Virus record (IMG/VR): IMGVR_UViG_3300032284_000337
Span: 1 to 28,745 of that record
Reading direction: 5' to 3' (one strand)
Origin: a virus
DNA: 28,745 nt
Made by a program: the position numbers and the translations under genes. This document shows positions 4,185 through 28,745 of the stretch, piece by piece; positions within the stretch are counted from its first letter, which is position 1, and each line of letters starts with the position of its first letter. The notes under the pieces were generated by a model. The model made no database searches and was not told the DNA's origin. It worked only from the letters and a program-made list of their open reading frames with translations.

Positions 4185-7100
4185 ATGGCACTAATTTCCC
4201 CAGGCGTACAAGTAACGGTAATCGACGAAAGCACCTACCAACCAACGGCAGTAGGTACAGTTGCTTATGTGTTGCTTGCTACAGGACAAGATAAACAAAA
4301 CCCAAGCGGTGTTACAGCCTCTTACACAACAAAATCAAATGCTAACAAATTATTTGCAGTTAGCAGTCAGAGAGACCTAGTTACTAACTATGGTTTACCA
4401 AACTTTGTACAGGATTCATCAGGCAGCCCAATTCATGGTCATGAACTTAATGAATATGGCTTACTAGCAGCTTACAGTGCATTAGGCGTTGCAAGCAGAG
4501 TATATGTACAACGTGCAGATGTTAACCTTACACAATTAAAAGGTACAGGTAACAGACCACATGGTACACCAGTAGATGGTACATATTGGTTAGATCTCAG
4601 TAACACTAACTTTGGTGTATACGAATTCAATGACAATGCATTTACTCTACAAACACCAGCAATTCTTACAGATGCTTCTCAAATCGACAACGGCAAACCA
4701 CGTTTTGGTGCCATTGGCAGTTACGCTGTTGTAGCAAGTAGTTCTAGAAATCCACTTTTCTACAAACGTGGTGGTGATACGACTGATCAATTAAACAATA
4801 CATGGGTATTGGTTGGTAGTGATGATTGGAAAATGGCTGTACCTACTATTGTTGGTACTATTTCTAATCCAACACTAGGCGCAAGTGACAGACTTATAAT
4901 CAATGGCACAAACGTACAAGTTGGTGGTACAACTGTGGGTTCAGCTAGAGATTCTATTAACAATGCAGGCATCCAAGGTGTTATGGCAACAGTTAATGGT
5001 TTAGGTCAACTTGAAATTAAGATTGACAGTACATCAGCAAGTACCGGCAATACGGCTTTGGCAGATGGCGCAGTTAGAATCAGCAAGTATACATATGGTG
5101 ATTACAATGATGCGGCAGCTAACCTTGGCTTATTCACTACGGCTATCGATGGTTCAGCTACAAATAAGAAACTTTACGCACCAGCTTTAACATTTGCACC
5201 AAGTAATCAACATCCAGCATGGCTAAACAAAACATCAACTATTCCAGGTGATGCAACACCAAGACCTTATGGTTCAGTTTGGTTAAAAACTACTGCACAA
5301 GGCAATGGTGCTAGCTATGCAATGGACGAATACCAAGCATTAGCAGATAGTTGGACACCAACTCCGGCTCCATTATATCAAGATGACAATGCAGCAATCT
5401 ACGGACTAGATCCAGTAGGTGGTGGTATTGATTTAAAAGTTGGTACATTGTACATTAAATATGACAGCTACGCAGAAGGCACAGCTACATTTAAACCTTA
5501 TATTAAAACAGTTAAAGGTTTATTAAAAATAACAGGCAGTATCTTAACAGGTGCTAACCCATTTAACAGTGGTGATACATTTAGCTTAGAAGTAAGCGTG
5601 CCTGGATCAGCTTCTACAGTAAGTGCAACTATAACTCTAAGTAGCACCACAAGTGCAAGTTTTGTAGCAGATATCTTATCTGCTAGACTTCCTAATGTAG
5701 TTGCTATAGTTGAATCTAGCGGTGCAATTAGTCTAAGTCATCTAGCTGGTGGCACTATTAAGTTAATGGATGTTTTAGGTACACCATTAGTAACAGCTGG
5801 TTTAACAACAGACACAAGTCTTGTAGTTACACCACACGTACAACAAGTTAAGGATAGTATGGGTAATACAATGTATTATCTTGCTAGTCCATTTGTTGCT
5901 ATGGATTTAACAGGCGTTCCTTATATACCATCTATAACAGCACCTTTTAGTAATCCAGCAGACGGCACTCTATGGTACTATAGCGATCCACTAGCTGTTG
6001 ACATCATGATGAATGATGGCAGTGGCTGGAGAGGATATAAGAATGTACAACAAGATGCACGTGGTTATGACTTAACATTAACAGATTCATTGGGTCCAAT
6101 ACTAAGCGCATCTGCACCAACAACACAAGTTAACGGTGCACCTCTAGTAGCTGGTGATTTATGGGTAGACACAAGTATGTTAGACAGCTATCCTAATATC
6201 TATAGATTTACAGATGGTAGAGTGTGGTCTTTAATTGACAATACAGATCAAGTTAGTGTAAATGGTATCTTGTTTGCAGATGCACGTTGGAGTTACAATG
6301 GTACAACAAATCCAATTACAGATGCAAAACCTGATGTGATAGCATTACAAGGCAGTGACTATATTGACAGTGATTGTCCTGATTACAGACTATATGCACG
6401 TGGTACATTATTATTCAACACACGTCGTAGCGGATACAATGTAAAACGTTTTGAAAGCACATGGTTTGCAGATAAACCGTTTGAAACAGATGGATCATAT
6501 CCAAGTGTATTAAGCGCATGGGTATCACATAGTGGCAGAGACGAAAATGAAGTTCCATACTTTGGTCATAAAGCACAACGCAGTGTTGTTGTTACAGCTC
6601 TTAAAGCGGCAATTGAAAGCAGCACAGACTTAAGAGAAGAACAAACACAGTTTAACTTAATTGTTTGCCCAGGATATCCAGAATTAATGCAAAATATGAT
6701 CACCTTAAATGATGATCGTAAACAAACAGCATTTATTATTGGTGATACACCTATTGACTTATCTTCTAGTTCTAATGGACTAATGCAATATACAAGTAAT
6801 GCATTACTAGCTCAAGACAACGGTGAGAAAGGTTTAGTAAGCACAAGCGAATATTTAGGTGTGTTCTATCCAAGTGGTCTAGCTACTAACTTAGATGGTA
6901 ATAGTGTTGCAGTGCCTCCAAGCCATGCTATGCTAAGAACATTTATACGTAGCGATAACGTAAGTTATCCATGGTTTGCACCAGCTGGTGTACGTCGTGG
7001 TTTAATTGACAATTTAACAGCTATTGGATATGTTGACACAACAGACAACAATGCATTCCGTAGCATTGGTGTAACTAACAGTTTACGTGATATACTTTAT

Positions 7101-9613: not shown

Positions 9614-9976
9614 ATGATAGCTGGAAATTTACCACCTAAAGATAATAACAATCCAACCACTACGTACTTTAACAATTTCTTTACACAACCATATAATGTT
9701 AGTCAAGGTGTAGATGATGCTGTTGTTGGTTATTTTCAAGAACTTACAGGCGACAACGATACTGGTACTACACTTGCAGCCGCAGTGTTATATACGGCGG
9801 TAACACAAAAAATTGATCCAATGGCTTTAATAGATGAGTTTAGAAGACTACAGAGAAATCAGTTAAATGCCTATCTTACAATGTTTTTAAATCTTAACAG
9901 AGTTAACACAAGTCTACTAGGATTAAGCAATAGTCCTAGTACAAACAAATATATAGCAAGAGCTATCCTACCATAA
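9614..9976 (+). CDS. small conserved T4-like phage protein of unknown function (120 aa)
   Basis: A 120-residue protein, AAGGATAA ribosome site, ATG at 9614. I recall close relatives in marine T4-like phages beside tail and head-completion genes, always without a function. Conserved-looking blocks are VVGYFQELTGD (about residues 38-48), the helix with ALIDEFRRLQRNQLNAYLTMFLNLNR (about 75-100, in part) and the end SNKYIARAILP-like text. It is helical, with no membrane segment. Its stop codon overlaps the start of the gp4-like gene (TAATG), so the two are translationally coupled, and a virion or assembly role is likely. Confidence 0.65.
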   Translation: MIAGNLPPKDNNNPTTTYFNNFFTQPYNVSQGVDDAVVGYFQELTGDNDTGTTLAAAVLYTAVTQKIDPMALIDEFRRLQRNQLNAYLTMFLNLNRVNTSLLGLSNSPSTNKYIARAILP

Positions 9977-10407
9977 TGGGCAAGTATGCATCAGGCAAGT
10001 ATAAGGTAAACCATCCCGAAAAATACATGGGCAAACATGCGCCTACATACAGAAGCAGCTGGGAATACACATTCTGTACTTTTTGTGATAACAATCCATC
10101 CGTAGTTAATTGGGCAAGTGAAGCAGTATCTATACCCTATAGAAATCCTGTCAGTGGCAAACAAACTATATACGTACCGGATTTTCTTATAGTATATGTA
10201 GACGCTAATGATAAAAAACACACAGAACTAGTGGAAATTAAACCACTTAAAGAGGCAACCATGGAAAGCGCCAAGTCCTTAAGGGACAAACTTAGTGTAG
10301 CAATAAACATGGCAAAGTGGGCTGCTGCTGATAACTGGGCTCGCGCTAATAACATACGTTTTAGAGTCTTAACAGAATTTGATATCTTTAAGAATATGAA
10401 ACGGTAA
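9976..10407 (+). CDS. 4: head completion protein / nuclease, T4 gp4-like
   Basis: T4 gp4 (also called gp50/65) finishes the packaged head before neck attachment, and its relatives carry a TnsA-like PD-(D/E)XK nuclease fold. This protein has 143 residues against about 150 in T4. It shows the family pattern: THAPTYRSSWEYTFCTFCDNN at about residues 20-40 (quoted in part as YRSSWEYTFCTFCD), VVNWASEAVSIPYRNPVSGK, then YVPDFLIVY (PD at about 66) and LVEIKPLK (E-x-K at about 86). PD followed by E-x-K is the catalytic layout of the fold. Its start overlaps the previous stop codon. Confidence 0.8.
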   Translation: MGKYASGKYKVNHPEKYMGKHAPTYRSSWEYTFCTFCDNNPSVVNWASEAVSIPYRNPVSGKQTIYVPDFLIVYVDANDKKHTELVEIKPLKEATMESAKSLRDKLSVAINMAKWAAADNWARANNIRFRVLTEFDIFKNMKR

Positions 10408-23106: not shown

Positions 23107-24249
23107 ATGCGCAAATTAATAAACTTATTATTATCAGAAGCACCAGTAGACCTTAAGAAACAGGTTATTAATCTAGTACAACAGACATCAGATCAAGACT
23201 TATTAAACAAGGTTCTAGTTGCACTTAAATCCACCGACCTTTCATCTAAACTTAAAAAAGTATTAAGCACAGACAAAGATGCCAACAAAATGGTAGATAG
23301 ATTGGCTAAACTTATTATTAATGTAGATGGCACTGTGGCTGAAAAAGAAAAATTTGCAGATGATTTTAAATCGGGATTTGTAGATTCTGGTAAGTTATTA
23401 GATGGCAAACAACATACTTTTGATGAGATAATAACCCCAGGTTTTCCACAAAGAGTATTTGCTTTGTTAGCAACAGAACTTACAAGTCAGGGTGTTGGCC
23501 CAGGTGAGGTGGCTTTAGCTGTAATGAGTCCTAATATCAGTCACAGTGGCAGGGCTAGTGGTGGCGGGGACTTACAGATAGATGGCAAAGCAGTAGAAGT
23601 AAAAACCACAGTGAGTAAAGGTGGTAGATGGTCAGATGCCCGTAAAGGTGAACTGAACATGCAGGGCATTAAGAAAGAATTAACCACAGCTCTTGAAGGT
23701 AGTGGCATAGATTTACCACCTAGATTAGGCATTGGATTTTGGCTAACACAGGTACGTCCTTGGCTACAAGAAAATGGTAAAGATATAAAAAAAATAACCC
23801 AAGTAATGGCAGATGGTTTATTCAGTAAAACCAATAACAGTCAATACCAAAAAGCATTAGCAGAGGGTGATGCACAGGCTATACTAGATGCTATCTTACA
23901 GGTTGGTTATGACAATTACAAAGCATACAGTAAATTTGATGGCATGCTAATGATAGATATAAGGGGTGGCGGCACAGCACAATATTTTGGCACATACGAA
24001 GACATGCAGGGTAAAATTAAACCTAGTACAGCATATCTATATGCACCAGAAAGTGAAGCAATGCCACAGGTAGAACTTATAGCAACAGTAGGTGGTAGAG
24101 CAAAGGCATTAACTCCAGGCAAGACGGCGGCTGATAAAGCAGAGATAGACCAAAAGATCAGCGACATAAACAAACCAACTAGGGGCATAAGACCCAAACG
24201 TGCAGAACCTGCCGCTGCCAAAACCAGTTCAGTAAGAAAGAAACGTTGA
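23107..24249 (+). CDS. putative packaged PD-(D/E)XK nuclease with capsid-targeting leader (380 aa)
   Basis: The N-terminus MRKLINLLLSEA resembles the T4 capsid-targeting peptide and ends in LSE|A, a gp21-type cleavage site. Residues 20-100 are helical. A nuclease-like motif follows: SGRASGGGDLQIDGKAVEVK, with D155, then E164-V-K166 (GD-x8-E-x-K), the core of PD-(D/E)XK enzymes. Preceding PGEVALAVMSPN may hold another acidic ligand. After 170 come GRWSDARKGELNMQ, a helical domain, and a core ending with YDNYKAYSKFDGMLMIDIRGG. The C-terminus (about 350-380) is Lys/Arg/Ala-rich and probably binds DNA. It has its own late promoter. Together these suggest a nuclease packed in the head, possibly injected. 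Activity is inferred; no homologue was searched. Confidence 0.55.
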   Translation: MRKLINLLLSEAPVDLKKQVINLVQQTSDQDLLNKVLVALKSTDLSSKLKKVLSTDKDANKMVDRLAKLIINVDGTVAEKEKFADDFKSGFVDSGKLLDGKQHTFDEIITPGFPQRVFALLATELTSQGVGPGEVALAVMSPNISHSGRASGGGDLQIDGKAVEVKTTVSKGGRWSDARKGELNMQGIKKELTTALEGSGIDLPPRLGIGFWLTQVRPWLQENGKDIKKITQVMADGLFSKTNNSQYQKALAEGDAQAILDAILQVGYDNYKAYSKFDGMLMIDIRGGGTAQYFGTYEDMQGKIKPSTAYLYAPESEAMPQVELIATVGGRAKALTPGKTAADKAEIDQKISDINKPTRGIRPKRAEPAAAKTSSVRKKR

Positions 24250-24307: not shown

Positions 24308-24547
24308 ATGAGCACAAAAACATCCGTAGAACTAGTTGATATAGACAGTTGTCTAAGAGCATTTGATGGCAACAGATTTAAGTTAATCCTAGGTGCTGCA
24401 ACACGAGCAAGAGAAATTGCAGGCACAAGGATAATGGCAGAGAAAAACAACGTTAAACAAAAACATCCTAATAAACCAATCGTAACCGCAATGATAGAAA
24501 TAGCAGATGGTAAGATTGGCAAAGAATATCTACAAAAAGTAAGATAA
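24308..24547 (+). CDS. rpoZ-like: RNA polymerase omega subunit-like protein
   Basis: Bacterial omega (RpoZ) clasps the beta-prime subunit of RNA polymerase and helps its assembly. This 79-residue protein (E. coli omega: 91) aligns along most of its length. DIDSCLRAFDGNRFKLILGAATRAREIAG corresponds to the [22 protein letters not shown] region of omega (each about residues 12-40; compare NRFKLILGAATRARE with [15 protein letters not shown]), and NKPIVTAMIEIADGKI corresponds to NDKTTVIALREIEEGLI. Phage omega-like proteins are not part of the classical T4 set. It is driven by a consensus sigma-70 promoter, so it is probably made early, and might change host polymerase for phage transcription. Identity is from recognition only. 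Confidence 0.75.
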   Translation: MSTKTSVELVDIDSCLRAFDGNRFKLILGAATRAREIAGTRIMAEKNNVKQKHPNKPIVTAMIEIADGKIGKEYLQKVR

Positions 24548-24558
24548 AAAGTTGCCGG

Positions 24559-24591
24559 CACTCCGGAGTGTCCCCGTACTGGGTAAGCGGG
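24559..24591 (+). other. GC-rich foldable region before a small gene
   Basis: The palindrome CACTCCGGAGTG (24559-24570) is followed by CCCCG, GGG and CGGG tracts that can pair in alternative ways (CCCG 24573-24576 with CGGG 24588-24591, or CCC with GGG 24581-24583). No U-run follows, so it is not a standard terminator. It lies in the leader of the gene at 24610 and stands out as GC-rich in an AT-rich genome. Confidence 0.4.
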
Positions 24592-24609
24592 ATTAACATA
24601 GAGGAAAAT

Positions 24610-24783
24610 ATGTCTGATAATTTAGAATATGATCAAGAAGCAGCAATAGCAGAATTCTTAGCTAAGGGTGGTGTTATACAGCAGATACCCAGAGGTGTAG
24701 GCAGTGAGCAAGCTACTACTAATTTCTGGGGTACACCCAAGAAAAAAAGCAAAGAAAAACCAGCCGAAACAGATCCAGAATAA
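24610..24783 (+). CDS. small conserved phage protein (57 aa)
   Basis: The start at 24610 is chosen because GAGGAAAAT precedes it; a longer frame from 24568 would run through the GC-rich hairpin region. The product begins MSDNLEYDQEAAIAEFLAKGG, continues VIQQIPRGVGSEQATTNFWG and ends with a Lys/Glu/Pro-rich tail. I recall a similar small protein in marine T4-like phages, of unknown function. It is probably transcribed with the omega-like gene. The stop codon overlaps a late-like AATAAATA motif. Confidence 0.6.
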   Translation: MSDNLEYDQEAAIAEFLAKGGVIQQIPRGVGSEQATTNFWGTPKKKSKEKPAETDPE

Positions 24784-24879: not shown

Positions 24880-24964
24880 GCCCTGGTGGTGGAATTGGTA
24901 GACACACTGGTCTTAGAAGCCAGCGATGCGAGTCATGAGAGTTCGAGTCTCTCCTGGGGCACCA
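24880..24964 (+). tRNA. tRNA-Leu (anticodon TAG)
   Basis: Acceptor GCCCTGG with CTGGGGC (two G-U pairs), discriminator A and encoded CCA. Anticodon loop CTTAGAA gives TAG, reading CTA, a common Leu codon in this window. The long variable arm is that of a class II tRNA. T-loop GTTCGAGTC. Confidence 0.93.
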
Positions 24965-24995
24965 AATTCGGTAACATATCTGTAATACCATTATA

Positions 24996-26340: not shown

Positions 26341-26562
26341 ATGGCTTTACATACTGTTAAACTGCATGTCTGGTTTAATGGTCTATTGACTATACAGGAA
26401 ACTGTATTTGATGACTACGAGCAGGCAATATGGTCTGCCCATGGTCTTATAGAAAATTTTACTAAAAATCATCCACATCTATCAGCTATTGTTAAGGTAT
26501 ATAACGAATCTCAAGAATTAGTGTATACCAATGATTTACCAAAAACACCAACCTACGCTTGA
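26341..26562 (+). CDS. second small paralogue (73 aa)
   Basis: Paralogue of the preceding gene, only 2 bases downstream, sharing the H-x-VK-x-H-x-W-x-NG-x-L start, the central acidic helix and the KVY strand, but with 4 His instead of 10. No Shine-Dalgarno is visible, so translation is probably coupled to the first copy. The stop codon region overlaps the -35 box of the tRNA promoter. Function unknown. Confidence 0.6.
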   Translation: MALHTVKLHVWFNGLLTIQETVFDDYEQAIWSAHGLIENFTKNHPHLSAIVKVYNESQELVYTNDLPKTPTYA

Positions 26563-26587
26563 TATTATAAAACAAATTTGTTATAAT
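26559..26587 (+). promoter_or_regulatory. sigma-70 promoter for tRNA pair, TTGATA-N17-TATAAT
   Basis: TTGATA (26559-26564), 17 bp, TATAAT (26582-26587). The predicted start at about 26594 is only 2 bases before the mature 5' end of tRNA-Ser. Confidence 0.75.
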
Positions 26588-26595
26588 TAACACAT

Positions 26596-26685
26596 GGAGA
26601 GTTGGCCGAGTGGTCGAAGGCAGCGGCTTGCTAAGCCGTCCTCCCAGTAATGGGAGCATAGGTTCGAATCCTATACTCTCCGCCA
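26596..26685 (+). tRNA. tRNA-Ser (anticodon GCT)
   Basis: Acceptor GGAGAGT with ACTCTCC, discriminator G (standard for Ser) and encoded CCA. Anticodon loop TTGCTAA gives GCT, reading AGC/AGT, the favoured Ser codons in the neighbouring genes. The variable arm CTCCCAGTAATGGGAG is a long hairpin, as in class II tRNAs. Confidence 0.95.
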
Positions 26686-26692
26686 ATTTTGT

Positions 26693-27448: not shown

Positions 27449-28308
27449 GCACCGCCGGCGTAGAACCAATAAAAAATCCTAAACTATATACAACAGTGCA
27501 TTATAGTGTTCAAACATGCGATATAGTATATAATAATTTAGCACCCGGTGCGCAGCGCATGGAAAGATTTGCATGTGCAACTAAGGATGAACTAGTTAGA
27601 AAGTGTCTAACGTCTTTCTTTGAATCACTTGAATACTGTGTAACAAAAATTCCGTATAGCCAGCATTATGTTAGGTTTTTTGATGATCACAGTACACCTA
27701 AAACTATTAAGTTTCTAAATAAATTAATAAAAAGATTTAGCAGCGACAACATACACATTGATCTAGTAAACCTTAAGAGGAGAGGCATAATGAACTCCAC
27801 TAAGAACTGTTTTAAATGGATGGATAAATCAGGCAAACAGTTAGTTTACCAAATTCAAGATGATTTTTTATTTAGACCCAACTGTATATTTGAAATGATA
27901 GATATCTTTAATTATGTGCTAAACGAAACAGAGAATCAAGAGCATATTATTGTATTGCCATTCAATGACCCTAGACATTGGTTGGGATATTACAAATATA
28001 AATTAATGCCTCGTATGGTGGTGCCAGGAAGACATCAATATTGGTTAACTGCCTATGATCTACCAAGCGGATTTATGACTAGTGTTGAACAATTCCGTAA
28101 GCACTGGGATCTATACGATGCTTTTTTAAAGATGGATAGTTTTGATCCTATGTTAGAACCAAAAACTATTAATAAGATATGTTATGAATATAGGGCTCAA
28201 GCTCTAAGACCATTTACGACTCTCGCATTTCACATGCAAACAGAATATGAAGAAGATCCCTACACCGACTGGCGCCCATACTGGGACGCAGTACAAGATA
28301 TAAAATAA
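27445..28308 (+). CDS. GT-A/GT2-like glycosyltransferase (287 aa)
   Basis: Probable sugar transferase. VRFFDDHST (about 76-84) suits the start of the nucleotide-sugar domain, and VYQIQDDFLFRPNC (about 134-147) has D139-D140 in the place of the metal-binding DxD motif, followed by a helix and FNDPRHWLG. No membrane segment. It overlaps the methyltransferase gene (ATGA), so the two are co-translated. No clear similarity to T4 DNA glucosyltransferases is seen, so a virion or host-surface glycan is more likely. The reaction is inferred. Confidence 0.6.
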   Translation: MSTAGVEPIKNPKLYTTVHYSVQTCDIVYNNLAPGAQRMERFACATKDELVRKCLTSFFESLEYCVTKIPYSQHYVRFFDDHSTPKTIKFLNKLIKRFSSDNIHIDLVNLKRRGIMNSTKNCFKWMDKSGKQLVYQIQDDFLFRPNCIFEMIDIFNYVLNETENQEHIIVLPFNDPRHWLGYYKYKLMPRMVVPGRHQYWLTAYDLPSGFMTSVEQFRKHWDLYDAFLKMDSFDPMLEPKTINKICYEYRAQALRPFTTLAFHMQTEYEEDPYTDWRPYWDAVQDIK

Positions 28309-28311
28309 TAC

Positions 28312-28340
28312 TTGACTTTACCTAGTAACCACAGTATAAT
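28312..28340 (+). promoter_or_regulatory. sigma-70 promoter, TTGACT-N17-TATAAT
   Basis: TTGACT (28312-28317), 17 bp, TATAAT (28335-28340). The predicted start is G28347, two bases before the closing stem of the structured RNA. It probably drives that RNA and the three tRNAs after it. Confidence 0.85.
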
Positions 28341-28346
28341 ACTATG

Positions 28347-28478
28347 GTAAATTATTAGTGTAGGGTTTTCAGCCAACCAATTTATGATATATGCGGAGTA
28401 ATTCTAGATAGTACCTTCCGACGGGTCATAGCTGCTGGTGCAACAGCAGCACGAGAATCCTACACTAATAGTTTTATA
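28347..28478 (+). ncRNA. structured non-coding RNA in the tRNA cluster
   Basis: A non-protein stretch with a 22-bp closing stem: 28349-28370 pairs with 28453-28474, including the core ATTAGTGTAGGGTTTTC against GAGAATCCTACACTAAT, with three G-U wobbles and no mismatch. Inside are a 7-bp hairpin GCTGCTG/CAGCAGC (28431-28437 with 28444-28450) and a CGGAGTA...TAC-CT-TCCG hairpin (28394-28420, two-base bulge), giving a three-way junction. The 5' end is set by the promoter start and the 3' end by the tRNA-Ile 5' end, where RNase P would cut. No known RNA family fits (not tmRNA, SRP RNA, RNase P RNA or 6S). T4 also has two stable RNAs of unknown function in its tRNA cluster. Confidence 0.75.
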
Positions 28479-28555
28479 GGGCCTTTAGCTCAGTTGGTTA
28501 GAGCAAGCGACTCATAATCGCTGGGTCGCTGGTTCGAGCCCAGCAAGGCCCACCA
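28479..28555 (+). tRNA. tRNA-Ile (CAT, lysidine type, reads ATA)
   Basis: Acceptor GGGCCTT with AAGGCCC, discriminator A, encoded CCA. The anticodon loop is CTCATAA. The anticodon arm and T-arm (GCGACTCATAATCGCT, then GGTCGCTGGTTC) match E. coli tRNA-Ile2 as I recall it, so the CAT anticodon is probably modified to read ATA, rather than this being elongator Met. Confidence 0.85.
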
Positions 28556-28562
28556 AAAATAC

Positions 28563-28639
28563 CTGCCTTTAGCTCAGCTGGATAGAGCAAAGAGCTTCTA
28601 CCTCTTAGGTCAGTGGTTCGAATCCACTAGGGCAGGCCA
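28563..28639 (+). tRNA. tRNA-Arg (anticodon TCT)
   Basis: Acceptor CTGCCTT with AGGGCAG (one T-G pair), discriminator G and encoded CCA. Anticodon stem AAGAG/CTCTT and loop CTTCTAC give TCT for AGA. T-loop GTTCGAATC. Confidence 0.92.
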
Positions 28640-28655: not shown

Positions 28656-28731
28656 GCTCCCATCGTCTAGAGGCCTAGGACACCCGCCTTTCACGCAGGT
28701 AACACGAGTTCGAATCTCGTTGGGAGTACCA
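28656..28731 (+). tRNA. tRNA-Glu (anticodon TTC)
   Basis: Acceptor GCTCCCA with TGGGAGT (first pair G-T), discriminator A and encoded CCA. Loop CTTTCAC gives TTC for GAA. T-loop GTTCGAATC. The last 14 bases of the window after it show no feature. Confidence 0.92.
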
Positions 28732-28745
28732 AATTTGCCCATGTG

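Follow-up and report, generated by a model that had tools for sequence, protein, structure and literature searches.

Introduction

Several known RNAs offer points of comparison for a structured RNA placed beside phage tRNA genes. The packaging RNA of phage phi29 (RF00044) is built on a long end-to-end helix that opens into hairpins; the put RNA of phage HK022 and the rrn antitermination leaders are structured RNAs at the start of a transcript and are not known to include a long closing stalk; and the Y RNA YrlA (RF02553) pairs its 5′ and 3′ ends into a stem that bears a structured module. RNAs C and D of phage T4 are non-coding RNAs of 119-139 nt in the tRNA cluster, and two papers give their function as unknown (PMC9697503, PMC12685909). 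Both are reported to be of the late class in T4. In Listeria phage CKA15, abundant unannotated RNAs with TTGAC/TATAMT promoters lie near the tRNA genes, and the authors who described them suggest a Y RNA or sRNA (PMC12282133). RNA-mediated antitermination is an established mechanism of lambdoid phages (PMC6256539).

Here, we report on an element at the head of a run of tRNA genes in a 28,745-base stretch of phage DNA (the window), which constitutes a whole IMG/VR virus record. The element shares with T4 RNAs C and D its type, size and tRNA setting, but the predicted folds of the T4 RNAs lack a long closing stalk, and rnaC has a T-arm-like hairpin that is absent from the core of the element. 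The original prediction had placed RNAs C and D in similar positions; this likeness proved loose, as rnaD and then rnaC follow tRNA-Arg at the 3′ end of the T4 cluster rather than standing at its head. Homology was rejected on the basis of these folds and because model R2 gave no match on L312. The CKA15 RNAs, as published, resemble the element in place and promoter type; in the relative P100, no helix of the tRNA region exceeds 17 pairs, and most helices of that length fall within a repeat-like stretch downstream of the final tRNA. The put RNA and the rrn leaders share with the element their position at the transcript start. YrlA is like it in its paired ends, but no YrlA model match, tRNA-like module or TROVE gene was seen for the element. 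The phi29 packaging RNA recalls it in overall shape; however, its model does not match the element, and the TerL of the window phage is of the T4 type.

Results

The window UvsX was closest to those of jumbo myoviruses (70% identity with Sinorhizobium phage Phosso and 65% with Agrobacterium phage Atu_ph07), and an affinity with jumbo myoviruses also fits the tail sheath and TerL. A gene without known function ends at 28308, upstream of the promoter described below. For the neighbouring 287-aa protein, no relatives were found in viral contigs, and tblastn in phages gave no match. The CAT tRNA that follows the element is labelled Met(CAT) by ARAGORN; from its resemblance to the E. coli gene, we read it as a probable lysidine-type tRNA-Ile2, in agreement with the tRNA-Ile of the original prediction. 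Elsewhere in the window, an RNA polymerase omega-like gene (24308-24547; Pfam Rpb6, E 1.2e-10) adjoins a gene with a SutA-type RNA-polymerase-binding domain (24568-24783; E 4.3e-7), and a promoter-like site at 24246 precedes both; this gene set may serve to retune the host polymerase. A protein with a TnsA-like endonuclease domain (9976-10407; E 2.5e-21) lies amid the structural genes.

The features of the locus are listed in Table 1. A repeat search recovered two complementary arms of 22 nt each (86%), 82 nt apart, and a helix scan resolved them into 22 uninterrupted pairs with five G-C pairs, three G-U pairs and no mismatches, the length and the number of G-U pairs being those originally predicted. 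Among helices spanning at most 400 nt, this was the longest in the 28.7-kb window, the runner-up having 17 pairs. The minimum free energy of 28347-28478 was -49.6 kcal/mol, whereas shuffled sequences averaged -26.9 with an sd of 3.6 (z -6.24), none of the 200 being as good; the opposite strand folded less strongly (z -3.06). The predicted fold also contained the two further hairpins anticipated inside the helix (28383-28430 and 28431-28450), and the helix ended four bases before the tRNA, as claimed. When the element and its tRNA were folded as one transcript, they formed separate domains, with the tRNA part not drawn as a cloverleaf.

Table 1. Positions of the element, its flanking features and related features in other phages (window coordinates unless another record is named).
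Feature	Position	Strand	Basis or remark
Sigma70-type promoter, TTGACT-17-TATAAT, 11/12 match	28312-28340	+	same hexamers and spacing in L319 771-799
Predicted transcription start, 7-8 nt past the -10 hexamer	28347-28348	+	inferred from spacing; tRNA-Ser parallel
Closing stalk, 5′ arm	28349-28370	+	fold, repeat search, helix scan; pairing kept with double changes in L319
Conserved core	28371-28430	+	58/60 bases identical in L319; predicted fold
Core start: 12 single-stranded nt, then hairpin	28383-28388/28425-28430	+	predicted fold
Inner 5-pair hairpin, nested in core hairpin	28394-28398/28416-28420	+	predicted fold
3′ hairpin, 7 pairs (28431-28437/28444-28450), loop GUGCAA	28431-28450	+	predicted fold
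Closing stalk, 3′ arm	28453-28474	+	fold, repeat search, helix scan; L319 pairing
Linker from stalk to tRNA, 4 nt	28475-28478	+	sequence; likewise 4 nt in L319 (928-931)
tRNA, anticodon CAT	28479-28555	+	ARAGORN; Rfam tRNA
tRNA-Arg(TCT), next in same tRNA run	28563-28639	+	
tRNA-Glu(TTC), next in same tRNA run	28656-28731	+	record ends at 28745
TROVE (Ro60-type) proteins	W02 94308-95237 (Atu_ph07); W01 290343-291191 (Phosso)		
RNA of about 200 nt before tRNA-Pro	L192 3660-3885; L194 1029-1242; L122 8914-9130; L303; L310; L311; L195		

The -10 hexamer of the promoter ends 9 nt before the helix. The same spacing was found at a second promoter (26559-26587), where tRNA-Ser (26596) begins 9 nt after the -10, suggesting that in this phage genes for structured RNAs begin directly where transcription is predicted to start. 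Given that promoter, tRNA-Ser would be nearly leaderless. Promoter-like sites matching at least 11 of 12 positions numbered seven in the window, all on the + strand, as against 1.15 on both strands together in Markov sequences of the same length. A palindrome at the -10 (28328-28348) was considered as an operator and dropped, because it is absent from the promoter of the homologue described next.

The homologue was reached through a 17-mer taken from the unpaired stretch of the core, which had exact matches in two viral contigs. In one of these, L319, covariance model R1 located the homologue at 807-927 with 117 bits (E 2.7e-29). L319 is part of a 118,684-base phage record that is otherwise different from the window. 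Its element folds as strongly as that of the window (z -6.55) and has the same layout: the promoter, the stalk (807-927), 4 nt, and a CAT tRNA from 932. The two copies thus form a new RNA family with its own sigma70 promoter, a 4-nt gap and a CAT tRNA in both, and the promoter and tRNA boundaries originally proposed for the structured RNA recur in a second phage. An intrinsic-terminator-like site (739-772) lies just upstream of the L319 promoter, so that transcription probably begins afresh there.

Matches to the window UvsX and TerL were not detected in the L319 record (L325-L330), which encodes a DNA polymerase, a GroEL-like protein, a protease-like protein and a predicted tmRNA, the long tag of which looks doubtful. 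The window and this record share a tRNA-Ser that is 98.9% identical over 95 nt and a tRNA-Leu that is 97.8% identical over 89 nt. Also shared are the element plus its tRNA (82.5% over 206 nt) and part of one protein (76% over 83 aa). The near-identical tRNA genes lie at 24880-24968 (tRNA-Leu) and 26595-26689 (tRNA-Ser) in the window and at 1449-1633 in L325. The proteins of the two phages otherwise show hardly any match, and tRNA genes seem to be exchanged as cassettes.

To count pairs, window 28352-28471 was aligned with L319 807-927. Of 37 shared pairs, 28 were unchanged and 9 were changed; all 9 changed pairs were still standard pairs, and none was broken. Double compensatory changes accounted for 5 of the 9 (four in the stalk and one in the 3′ hairpin), and the 3′ hairpin had in addition one single-sided compensated change. 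When the partners were slid by 1-3 columns, no double changes were obtained and pairing fell to 37-48%. Shuffling is a weak control when there are two sequences: the observed values were reached in 20 of 500 shuffles. The argument therefore rests on the preservation of pairing at 9 of 9 changed pairs and on the controls with slid partners. Loss of the stem in alignments, which the original prediction had named as an outcome that would refute it, was not seen: 37 of 37 pairs were kept.

Identity between the two copies was 27/38 in the stalk arms and 58/60 in the core. Because the arms have diverged yet still pair while the letters of the core are kept, what is preserved in the stem is its pairing and in the core its sequence. 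The stem has been rewritten in a second virus without loss of pairing, which, judged from these two copies, demonstrates selection on the fold. A conserved core with a diverged stem is, on the same comparison, opposite to the pattern expected of a bare processing stem, and a DNA repeat would not show it. The element accordingly reads as a real non-coding RNA gene with two known members, and its description as a new structured RNA is supported by the L319 covariation together with the absence of an Rfam match for either copy.

In the Rfam scans, the window gave only tRNAs at gathering thresholds, the element alone had as its sole hit at E<=5 a meaningless mir-308 on the other strand, and the L319 element matched no family; mir-308, MIR781 and other low Rfam matches were dropped. 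The prediction that the RNA matches no known class therefore held for both copies. A search of viral contigs with the helix pattern gave no hits, and blastn of the element in phages returned 16 records, each with an E value of 5 and an alignment spanning no more than 20% of the query. For the L319 element, there was one phage hit (E 5) and one plasmid hit (E 1), neither taken as a relative. Model R1 found nothing in 47 related records, in 8 named jumbo phages or in 55 CAT-tRNA loci, and model R2 found no third member: the window and L319 stood alone in 88 loci, and only the record of L319 was found among 47 records. Contigs L317 and L318, matched by the other core 17-mer, were judged chance. 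The same verdict applies to L320 and to three bacterial contigs in which the stem pattern recurs, since R1 does not find them.

No ORF of 20 aa was present on the + strand of the window element or of the L319 element, and a coding region was therefore dropped as a reading. Neither an intrinsic terminator nor an attenuator (a G+C-rich hairpin with a T run) was found on the + strand of the element. As for a retron or DGR, no reverse transcriptase domain was seen in the Pfam-scanned window proteins of a record that stops 271 nt past the element.

Long helices were then counted in the tRNA regions of related phages. A helix qualified if it had 18 or more pairs, with no more than 4 G-U and no fewer than 2 G-C among them, and enclosed a loop of more than 10 nt. 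The tRNA strand (318 kb, 21 regions) had 12, of which six came from regions where they had previously been seen (the window, L192, L194 and L195) and six from 16 further regions, two of which overlap, with two of these latter six far from the nearest tRNA (5,952 nt and 1,364 nt); the control strands (800 kb, 20 regions, two of which contain one tRNA each) had 2. Helices of at least 20 pairs numbered 8 and 0, respectively. A second survey gave 27 near and 33 far from tRNAs; some phages were represented several times in it, which inflates the near count. When G-U and A-C were permitted on equal terms, all 42 stalks together had 72 G-U and 43 A-C (p 0.009); the 22 stalks near tRNAs and on the tRNA strand that still had at least 18 pairs after end trimming, some of them related to each other, had 35 G-U and 7 A-C (p 1.5e-5).

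In Phosso, a 19-pair stalk (18 in the fold) at 427977-428072 occupies the space between two tRNA-Leu genes, separated from the first by 3 nt and from the second by 5 nt, and a 26-pair stalk, in which A-C was allowed and none occurs, ends 4 nt before tRNA-Lys. Homologous stalk RNAs stand beside different tRNAs in L192 (4797-4908) and L310 (10666-10777), with 7 of 36 pairs double-changed. For the stalk before tRNA-Pro, 3 of 15 pairs had double changes across 7 sequences. These data support the conclusion that the tRNA arrays of such phages hold many stalk-closed RNAs, with common descent not implied: models R1 and R2 find none of the wider-class stalk RNAs, the likeness is in layout only, and likeness of the window stalk letters to those of other stalks was put down to chance.

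Some further RNAs were observed in these arrays. A conserved RNA of about 200 nt precedes tRNA-Pro in freshwater jumbo phages and consists of GGAAACGAGGTCC, ACGGGCGGA and then a stalk-closed module; it shows covariation and has no Rfam match. Its first part is kept in L224 and L211, where the stalk module is different. One contig, L242, holds two near-identical stalk RNAs (785-904 and 1311-1428), one overlapping the end of tRNA-Glu and one 8 nt before tRNA-Tyr. In L195, ARAGORN does not list a tRNA-like gene (about 4567-4643) that has a T-arm and terminates in CCA; Rfam gives this gene only a weak tmRNA score.

Discussion

The RNA-level constraint, the conserved core and the order of promoter, stalk, 4 nt and tRNA are common to both copies. 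The reading that we favour, at a probability of about 0.5, is that the leading part of a tRNA transcript is cut off to give a stable RNA that acts in trans; its stalk would guard the ends and its core would do the work. A small RNA gene of about 126-132 nt would be the first member of a transcript running on into the tRNA genes. Host sigma70 RNA polymerase would start within about 2 nt of the stalk, and the RNA ends would pair into a 22-bp stalk bearing the conserved 60-nt core and the 3′ hairpin. RNase P cleaves at the 5′ end of tRNAs, and a leftover RNA with paired ends should resist exonucleases. Such a cut, followed by trimming of the 4-nt linker (or RNase III action on the stalk), would free a discrete, nuclease-resistant RNA. 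The stalk would be required only to pair, and the core would be the working part in trans; its likeliest role in the infected cell would be that of a ribonucleoprotein scaffold or decoy. The transcription, processing, stability and trans action of this RNA are inferred. Support at the level of the class comes from the stalk-closed RNAs beside tRNAs in related phages, with their G-U excess and covariation, and from the abundant RNAs of phage CKA15.

The tRNA that follows is of the same kind in both copies, so that a role in cis also fits and is the main rival, possible though on balance doubtful. The element would then be a leader of the tRNA operon, comparable to the put RNAs or the rrn leader: its nascent fold would bind RNA polymerase or Nus factors and allow the polymerase to traverse a long, structured and untranslated transcript without a Rho stop, or it would guide processing of the first tRNA. 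That the element begins at the promoter agrees with such a role, and untranslated tRNA operons would be a plausible substrate of antitermination. However, a put-like element of about 70 nt and two hairpins needs no 22-bp stalk that closes after about 126 nt, and other stalk RNAs, although non-homologous, lie between or after tRNAs, as at Phosso 427977-428072. A simpler account, which we consider improbable, makes the stalk a mere processing or stability stem (an RNase III site or a tRNA-precursor end cap) and its inside filler. A helix of about two turns, 4 nt before a tRNA, would suit RNase III, but the inside is better conserved than the stem.

We likewise give little credence to the reading that the element works as a Y RNA does, as the partner of a Ro60/TROVE protein to which it would tether a nuclease. 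Phosso and Atu_ph07, the nearest named phages by UvsX, both carry TROVE (2 of 22 records), a stalk with a structured core recalls the Y RNA layout, and T-arm-like hairpins occur in some cores elsewhere. Yet neither the window element nor the L319 element matches YrlA, the core has no T-arm-like hairpin, TROVE is absent from the window and from the 118,684-base record (G056), both of which are fragments, and several of the 20 records without TROVE have stalk RNAs. A DNA-level miniature element with terminal inverted repeats, inserted before the tRNA, seems very improbable: the near-identical pair in L242 is what mobile elements would leave, whereas in the present family the arms have changed by compensation and G-U, the core and not the ends is conserved, and the excess of G-U in the 22 trimmed stalks is strand-specific.

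Beyond the trans-acting RNA itself, we tentatively suggest, as an unlikely extension, that the element belongs to a large undescribed class of fast-changing, stalk-closed RNAs in the spacers of jumbo-phage tRNA arrays. With several per genome, such RNAs would be excised by the enzymes that mature tRNAs and would then serve in trans as scaffolds or decoys of phage ribonucleoproteins, one conceivable target being host enzymes that attack tRNA in the infected cell.

By the tests run, the element is neither a homologue of T4 RNAs C and D nor a Y RNA. It represents a previously undescribed RNA gene between its own promoter and a tRNA in a large bacterial virus; a search of open-licence papers found no description of such RNAs in jumbo phages, which does not establish absence from print. 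Interest in phage tRNA arrays has centred on the tRNAs themselves, and the RNAs between them are hardly described. The conserved core, the second member and the recurring layout provide concrete targets for core mutants, partner pull-down and model searches.
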